DNA of 42,671 nt from Lactovum miscens (lineage in GTDB: Bacteria > Bacillota > Bacilli > Lactobacillales > Streptococcaceae): contig NZ_JACHHV010000015.1 of the NCBI RefSeq assembly GCF_014202895.1, positions 1 through 42,671 of the forward strand. The letters run 5' to 3'. This document shows positions 31,834-33,279 of the stretch, one piece after another (positions within the stretch are counted from its first letter, which is position 1; each line of letters begins with the position of its first letter). Position numbers and translations under genes: made by a program. The notes beneath the pieces were generated by a model. The model saw only the letters and a list, made by a program, of their open reading frames with translations, was not told the origin of the DNA and did no database searches.

Positions 31834-33279
31834 TTAAATTTCTTCTCCATTAGATTGGATAACCTTTTGATACCAATAAAAACTATCTTTCTTTAAACGC
31901 TTACCGGTTCCTTTTCCTTTGTCGTCAAGATCCACATAAACAAAACCATAACGTTTACTCATCTCTGCTTGGGAATAACTGATAATATCAATTGGCCCCC
32001 ACGAAGCATAGCCAAAAATGTTAACACCATCTTTAATAGCTTCTTTCATTTGCAGGACATGATCTTGTAGATATTTTTTTCGGTAATCGTCATGGATTTT
32101 TCCATCGACAACTTCATCAACAGCACCAATTCCATTTTCGGCTACAAATAAAGGCAAATGATAACGATCCCAAAGCACATTGAATGTATACCTAAATCCT
32201 ACTGGATCCATTACCCATCCCCAAATTGAAGCTTTTGTATACGGATTATCCAACAACAACTGGTTTGGTTTCTCGGCATGCACAACCCCACTGCTGTAAT
32301 AACTAAAAGAGATATAATCAACCGTATTTTCTTTAATTAGTTGAAGCTCTTTCTCTGTCACTATTAAATTGATATTATGATCCTTAAAATATCGAATCAT
32401 GTAGCCTGGATATTCACCATGGACAGCTACGTCTGAAAAAAAGAATGTGTTTCTGTTCCAAAGCTCATATGCTGCCATGACTTCCTCTGGACGCGAACTA
32501 GCTGGATATGTCCCATTAATGCCCAACATCATTCCCATTTTCATATCTGTTTTAATTTGATGACCACATTTTACAACCTCTGCTGTAGCTACAAATTGAT
32601 GATGAACAGCTTGGAACATTGTCTCTTCTTGATTCTCATGTCCTTTCAAAATTCCAAGTCCGGCAAACTCGCCCCAGCCATAAACATCATTTTGCTGGTT
32701 AATAATTATCCAGTACTTCACTTTATTTTTGTAGCGCTTTAAGAGAACTTTGGAGAAACGAACAAAGAAATCGATGAGTTTTGGATTTGCCCAGCCACCA
32801 TATTCAACAATTAAGTTGATTGGTATTTCATAGTGAGAAATTGTCATTACTGGTTCAATACCAAGCTCCAACATTTTATCAATTAGACGGTCATAAAACT
32901 CAAGTCCCTTTTCATTAGGCTCAAGTTCGTCTCCTTTTGGAAAAATACGAGACCAGCTGAACGAAGTACGGAAGCACTTAAAGCCCATTTCAGCCATAAG
33001 TGCCAGATCATCTGGAAATGTATGAAAGAAATCGATTCCTCGACGCCGTGGATAATTACCAGTTTTGTCGTTTAAGGCTGTTTGAATTTCTTTTAAAGTC
33101 ACATTTTCCCCAAAAGATCCTAGACGACTATATTCCTCTGGTAGGATCATAATATCTGCTTGTGATGGTTCCCGTCCATCAACATCCCACGCTCCTTCTG
33201 CCTGATTGGCCGCAATGGCTCCTCCCCATAGAAAGCCTTTAGGAAAACTGGTTGTGGCATTAAATTTATTTAATAGCAC
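31834..33279 (-). CDS. GH1 6-phospho-beta-glucosidase with Gln at the acid/base site
   Basis: This 481-residue cytoplasmic glycosidase splits phosphorylated beta-glucosides delivered by the PTS. Family GH1 is plain: [16 protein letters not shown] at the start, SWSRIFP, and the nucleophile in LFVAENGIG (Glu381). The phosphate-binding region [10 protein letters not shown] near the C-terminus marks a 6-phospho enzyme. The acid/base motif normally NEI/NEP reads INQQND, so Glu is replaced by Gln195 (codon CAG at 32697-32695). The start is taken as GTG 33279, one base after the EIIC stop codon and nine bases after GAGAGG. It is the fourth gene of the PTS operon. Confidence 0.9.

Follow-up and report, generated by a model that had tools for sequence, protein, structure and literature searches.

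The new element described here is a clade. By its sequence it is a GH1 subfamily without the catalytic acid/base glutamate, coupled to a PTS and spread through the Bacillota. One member lies in the window, by which we mean the whole analysed stretch of 42,671 nucleotides from Lactovum miscens (contig NZ_JACHHV010000015.1). We propose, at what we judge to be an even chance, that these proteins are functional 6-phospho-beta-glucosidases which lost their general acid once and which act on glucosides brought in by the PTS whose leaving group can depart without being protonated. An earlier note, made from the letters of the window alone, had read the motif INQQND with Gln195 (CAG) at the acid/base position; this reading is correct, as are its coordinates and numbering, which assume the GTG start. 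The features of the GH1 gene are as follows.

31834..33279, minus strand: GH1 6-phospho-beta-glucosidase-like protein, an ORF of 481 amino acids from GTG
32695..32697, minus strand: Gln195 (CAG) in place of the catalytic acid/base Glu, from alignment to solved enzymes
32668..32670, minus strand: Glu204 at Gln+9, a candidate to replace the acid, in the loop that follows strand 4; kept in the two nearest orthologues
32137..32139, minus strand: Glu381 (GAA), the catalytic nucleophile of the AENG motif, unchanged across the 213 homologues
31930..31980, minus strand: 6-phosphate-binding segment from Ser434 to the ten-residue motif (S434, K442, Y444)

A TTG at 33306 is an alternative start, which would extend the ORF to 490 residues (31834-33306, minus strand). 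The GTG at 33279 is more likely, judging from an AG-rich ribosome site within the end of the EIIC gene. The protein matches the Pfam family Glyco_hydro_1 (PF00232) over its full length (399 bits, residues 19-487 of 490), and its best NCBIfam model is the 6-phospho-beta-glucosidase PRK09589, at 523 bits and thus short of the curated cut-off of 624. An AlphaFold2 model (pLDDT 94.1) has the (beta/alpha)8 fold of GH1 and compares with solved GH1 structures at TM 0.91-0.93, the best solved match being 6wgd (TM 0.91). In this model N194-Q195 end strand 4 and E381 ends strand 7.

In the two-Glu retaining mechanism an NE motif at the end of strand 4 supplies the acid/base, and ENG, where strand 7 ends, supplies the nucleophile. 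The second is present in the window protein, while in place of the first it has Gln195, followed by Gln196 (CAA). The alignment with GH1 6-phospho-beta-glucosidases that the note had called for puts INQQND on their NE(I/P) motif, which reads NE in 6wgd, 3qom and 3pn8, and Gln195 falls on that column. The note had also described the nucleophile and the phosphate-binding motif as intact, and both statements hold. Glu381 does not vary among the 213 homologues or in a separate alignment of 41 sequences. In the latter S434, K442, Y444 and the other GH1 active-site residues are invariant as well; the ten-residue motif itself lies at 31959-31930. The solved 6-phospho-beta-glucosidases (E. coli BglA, 2xhy; S. 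pneumoniae BglA-2, 4ipl; S. mutans, 3pn8; B. licheniformis, 6wgd) resemble the window protein in fold, length, ENG nucleophile and 6-phosphate pocket, at 44-52% identity. However, their acid/base residue is Glu (motif NE, as seen in the top alignments). Besides Q195, the polar residues R79, T105 and N274 are conserved in the clade and not in Glu types; the window protein has W at 274.

Relatives came from three sources: 335 genomes of the same family searched at the protein level, 84,980 genomes of named species that were scanned, and the DNA pattern YWxxxNQ(I/L/V/M/F)N, run on 395 genomes at the level of the Lactobacillales and 399 at that of the class. Across 213 aligned GH1 homologues the acid/base column holds Gln in 81, Glu in 132 and nothing else, and the nucleophile Glu is kept in every one; the 81 include the window protein two times, one of them as a locus in its own right. 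The number of proteins with this Gln, a count the note had suggested, is thus 81 of 213, and they form one clade. Gln homologues range down to 45% identity. The two nearest orthologues belong to other families of the order; both are 69% identical, and their motifs are WIVFNQVND and WIIFNQIND. Among the named carriers are Robertmurraya, Neobacillus, Niallia, Lentibacillus, Paenibacillus, Enterococcus, Dielma, Faecalitalea, Lachnospiraceae and Listeria. This is the sole Gln type among the six GH1 genes in the genome of the window. Apparent Q/N residues in two paralogues from the same genome and in L095 were traced to an alignment shift over NEINNQ, all three having Glu. Matches to the pattern YWI(V/I)RNQ(I/V)N at L168, L221 and L223 were dropped, there being no Gln-type GH1 at these sites.

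A tree of 81 representatives (43 Gln and 38 Glu types), built with the Gln column omitted and by a quick method that gives it moderate confidence, places the Gln proteins in a single clade with one change (SH-aLRT 95). The window protein belongs to an early branch, beside L181, L208 and L037. The pattern search selects for Gln; hence, to find reversions, 395 Lactobacillales genomes were searched with a profile of the clade, so that matches were not chosen by residue. This gave 68 matches of at least 726 bits in 57 of the 395 genomes, all of them Gln types. Sixty-four coincide with pattern sites, and the other four (three missed by the pattern, and the window) also read NQ. Matches that were read at 718 bits or below are Glu types, except for one known, diverged Gln branch. 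Among closely related pairs in the clade dN/dS is 0.02-0.08, indicating strong purifying selection. The single clade, the exclusively Gln-type top matches and the low dN/dS together indicate that the change is an old one, has become fixed and is under selection in a protein that functions. With moderate confidence, the sequences place the replacement of Glu by Gln once, in the common ancestor of the subfamily. Solved structures include no member of the Gln clade; the best, 6wgd, scores 682 bits with the same profile, below the clade members. Our literature search found no paper on Gln-type GH1 6-phospho-beta-glucosidases and no assay of any member.

In the window the gene is part of a Lac/cellobiose-family PTS operon, in the order EIIB, EIIA, EIIC, GH1 and regulator, from 35170 down to 29892. 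The note had called this operon undamaged, and it is indeed complete and free of stops, with EIIA, EIIB and EIIC adjoining the hydrolase and a PRD/EIIA regulator. Its other genes, and a hairpin near it, are listed here.

34844..35170, minus strand: PTS EIIB, lactose/cellobiose family (PF02302, 48 bits)
34521..34856, minus strand: PTS EIIA, lactose/cellobiose family (PF02255, 111 bits)
33281..34519, minus strand: PTS EIIC, lactose/cellobiose family (PTS_EIIC, 96 bits)
29892..31745, minus strand: LicR/MtlR-type regulator (PRD 58 bits, PTS_EIIA_2 65 bits, HTH_11)
36009..36032, minus strand: terminator-like hairpin after a shikimate kinase-like ORF, found by a scan as a consensus match only

The EIIC also matches TIGR00410, at 190 bits, under the cut-off of 236. 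EIIB starts with the ATG at 35170, after AAGGAGAAAAA; its longest ORF extends to 35269. The arrangement is akin to the lichenan PTS of Bacillus subtilis, licR-licBCAH, which likewise combines a LicR-type PRD/EIIA regulator with separate EIIB, EIIC and EIIA and a 6-phospho-beta-glucosidase. In that system, however, the hydrolase LicH is a GH4 enzyme that works by NAD-dependent elimination, and a Gln-type GH1 takes its place here.

This context recurs across the clade. Seventy Gln-type loci contained a Lac-family EIIC in 69 cases, EIIA in 65, EIIB in 62 and a PRD/EIIA regulator in 59. Most of the 66 Glu-type loci instead had a bgl-type EIIBCA (present in 42) and a BglG-like antiterminator (in 39) as partners, cluster names that were assigned by size and sequence. 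The EIIC proteins of the Gln loci, that of the window included, largely form one clade; the Glu-labelled EIICs in its main part come from L225 and L243, whose operons combine a Glu-type with a Gln-type enzyme, and other EIICs are present in some Gln-type loci. From these sequences, transporter and Gln-type hydrolase appear to be a dedicated pair. Recurring neighbours are a YczE/YitT-like membrane protein of about 210 amino acids, encoded within or next to the operon (12 loci: L038, L040, L045, L114, L185, L186, L190, L201, L236-L238 and L241), an extra HPr-like gene inside or beside the operon (four loci: L037, L040, L114 and L241) and HAD phosphatases. The neighbour clusters inspected, whose identities were read from sequences rather than by profile search, contained no sulfatase or esterase, and no operon neighbour across the clade identifies the substrate or hints at sulfur chemistry. 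In Bacillaceae-type loci (L040, L236, L237, L238, L240 and L241) one PTS is followed by two Gln-type GH1 genes in tandem, and these fall in different branches of the clade.

The reaction we envisage would begin with the operon PTS importing a beta-glucoside and phosphorylating it at C6, as the Lac-family EIIABC suggests. The hydrolase would bind the 6-phosphate through its pocket residues, and Glu381 would attack the anomeric carbon, consistent with its invariance and with GH1 chemistry. With no proton donor at the acid/base position, this first step should be fast only for good leaving groups, so that the enzyme would be confined to these. Candidates are a thiol or thiohydroximate, a carboxylate (from a 1-O-acyl glucoside) and an acidic phenol, all of which could depart as anions. 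The glucosyl-6-phosphate intermediate might then be released by water activated through another base, or by a small anion in place of such a base, the part that ascorbate plays in plant myrosinases. Hence the sequence comparison suggests that the Gln branch splits an unusual class of glucosides, among which S-glucosides are one of several possible candidates.

An alternative is that the acid was relocated rather than lost, with the proton donated by a carboxylate of the loop that follows strand 4, so that ordinary O-linked 6-phospho-beta-glucosides are cleaved. Asp or Glu occurs at Gln+5 to Gln+10 in 70 of 80 Gln types versus 40 of 126 Glu types, although these counts are not independent of phylogeny. 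The residue at Gln+7 is Glu in 63 of the 80 and Asp in four, and the three proteins of the window group have Glu at Gln+9. Moreover, all four members with Val or Ile at Gln+7 share their locus with a second GH1. In these loci (L243, L038, L225 and L226; loop NQxNLVPxx) the second GH1 is either a Glu type or a Gln type whose loop differs, as though the two hydrolases divided the task between them. However, the loop acid is not universal, since ten members have Cys, Val or Ile there or a loop of another build, and its position shifts between groups. L229, L230, L231, L187 and L037 have no loop acid, yet theirs is the sole GH1 of the operon. The column comparison likewise found no substitute catalytic residue common to the whole clade. 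The earlier note had named another Glu in the acid/base role as a finding that would refute it. We consider a relocated acid unlikely, though it is the most serious of the alternatives, and this loop is where the proposed mechanism is least certain.

A special case of the reading we prefer, in which the acid is lost, is the one advanced in the note: that the operon handles S-glucosides such as glucosinolates by a PTS route, in the manner of plant myrosinases. The latter are, to our knowledge, the only GH1 group with Gln at the acid/base position. This residue is Gln187 in Sinapis alba myrosinase. The parallel drawn in the note holds at that position, and GH1 membership and the Glu nucleophile are also shared. 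Plant myrosinases act on unphosphorylated glucosinolates with ascorbate as base, and their residue at Gln+7 is an Arg that binds the glucosinolate sulfate. In contrast, the bacterial clade has a 6-phosphate pocket and acts behind a PTS, and at Gln+7 it has mostly Glu, or Trp in the window protein. The resemblance is therefore one of a residue and a presumed mechanism and not of membership, because the clade groups with ordinary bacterial 6-phospho-beta-glucosidases, possesses the phosphate site and has no such Arg. The acid found at Gln+7 in most members would be unfavourable for a sulfated aglycone and argues mildly against sulfated substrates.

Thioglucoside breakdown in other organisms bears on the same point. 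The aphid myrosinase retains both glutamates and works with them, and E. coli BglA/AscB have been implicated in the breakdown of sinigrin (PMC6767122); Gln is consequently neither necessary nor diagnostic for thioglucosides. Companilactobacillus farciminis takes up sinigrin by a PTS and then uses a 6-phospho-beta-glucosidase (PttS/PbgS; PMC8660893), which provides a precedent for such a route. However, that transporter is a beta-glucoside-type EIIBCA, as found beside the Glu-type enzymes here, whereas the Gln clade has Lac-type EIIA, EIIB and EIIC; known bacterial thioglucoside routes combine a bgl-type PTS with BglA/AscB-like enzymes. The operon has no gene for sulfur chemistry or any other that points to S-glucosides, and the proposal of the note finds no backing there. 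We regard an S-glucoside route of this kind as decidedly unlikely. Since the operon is widespread in soil, gut and food bacteria, a substrate confined to Brassicales would be an improbable one for the entire clade. Less specific is the notion of an independent, phosphate-dependent bacterial counterpart of myrosinase, an unrecognised acid-free GH1 subfamily of the Bacillota with a co-evolved PTS for thio- or acyl-glucosides; this we consider a real possibility, if somewhat less than probable.

Two further alternatives give up hydrolysis. The protein could hand the glycosyl-6-phosphate intermediate to an acceptor or anion, as a transglycosidase or in a phosphorolysis-like reaction. Acid/base mutants of retaining glycosidases are rescued by external nucleophiles, which counts in favour of this idea, as does the fact that operons with a single GH1 hold no second enzyme for the sugar. 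The operon has, however, no conserved cofactor or acceptor gene, and we think such a role very unlikely. That the protein is a catalytically inactive GH1, retained for sensing or binding sugar phosphates, is a still fainter prospect. Pseudo-enzymes do exist in GH1, for example klotho, among the solved relatives, and some loci (L225, L243) have a second, Glu-type GH1. Nevertheless, the nucleophile is retained in 81 of 81 members, most loci have this protein as the only hydrolase beside the PTS, and the PRD regulator already senses. Decay, which the note had thought unlikely, or a sequencing error is rejected as next to impossible, given the clade-wide Gln, the intact ORFs, the dN/dS of 0.02-0.08 and the agreement of orthologues and tree.

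The clade-wide loss of the acid/base with nucleophile and operon kept amounts to a natural experiment in glycosidase mechanism. By this loss, dozens of operons labelled 'cellobiose PTS / 6-phospho-beta-glucosidase' are probably misassigned as to substrate, one of them in Listeria monocytogenes. The GH1 protein of that species (L293:5983-7434) reads WIVINQIN, is about 49% identical to the window protein and is a member of the Gln clade. Its gene lies in the order formate transporter, SSADH, IIB, IIC, IIA, GH1, PRD regulator and Vga(G). From this order we take the operon to be lmo0914-0918 and the GH1 gene presumably to be lmo0917. In published work, lmo0917 was induced in soil extract (PMC3179493) and lmo0915 in the mouse (PMC2679221); the literature we found on this operon consists of expression reports, with no assay of function. 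Lacking the acid/base Glu, the protein is doubtfully annotated as an ordinary cellobiose beta-glucosidase.

In the window (27778-29754) and in Listeria (L293:9696-11267, there Vga(G)) alike, the gene after the PRD regulator encodes an ABC-F protein. At about 33% identity over partial length, this shared order is most likely a coincidence. An Rfam scan of the window gave no match. On the other side of the operon, the terminator-like hairpin at 36009..36032 would, from its sequence, separate the shikimate kinase-like ORF from the PTS genes. The stretch of about 730 bases between them (35282-36008) has short, broken ORFs and no plausible gene, and a strong inverted repeat, AAAATACCTAG...CTAGGTATTTT, is found at about 35268-35302, just before EIIB. 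Stretch and repeat may represent an insertion that has degraded, or else a leader hairpin.
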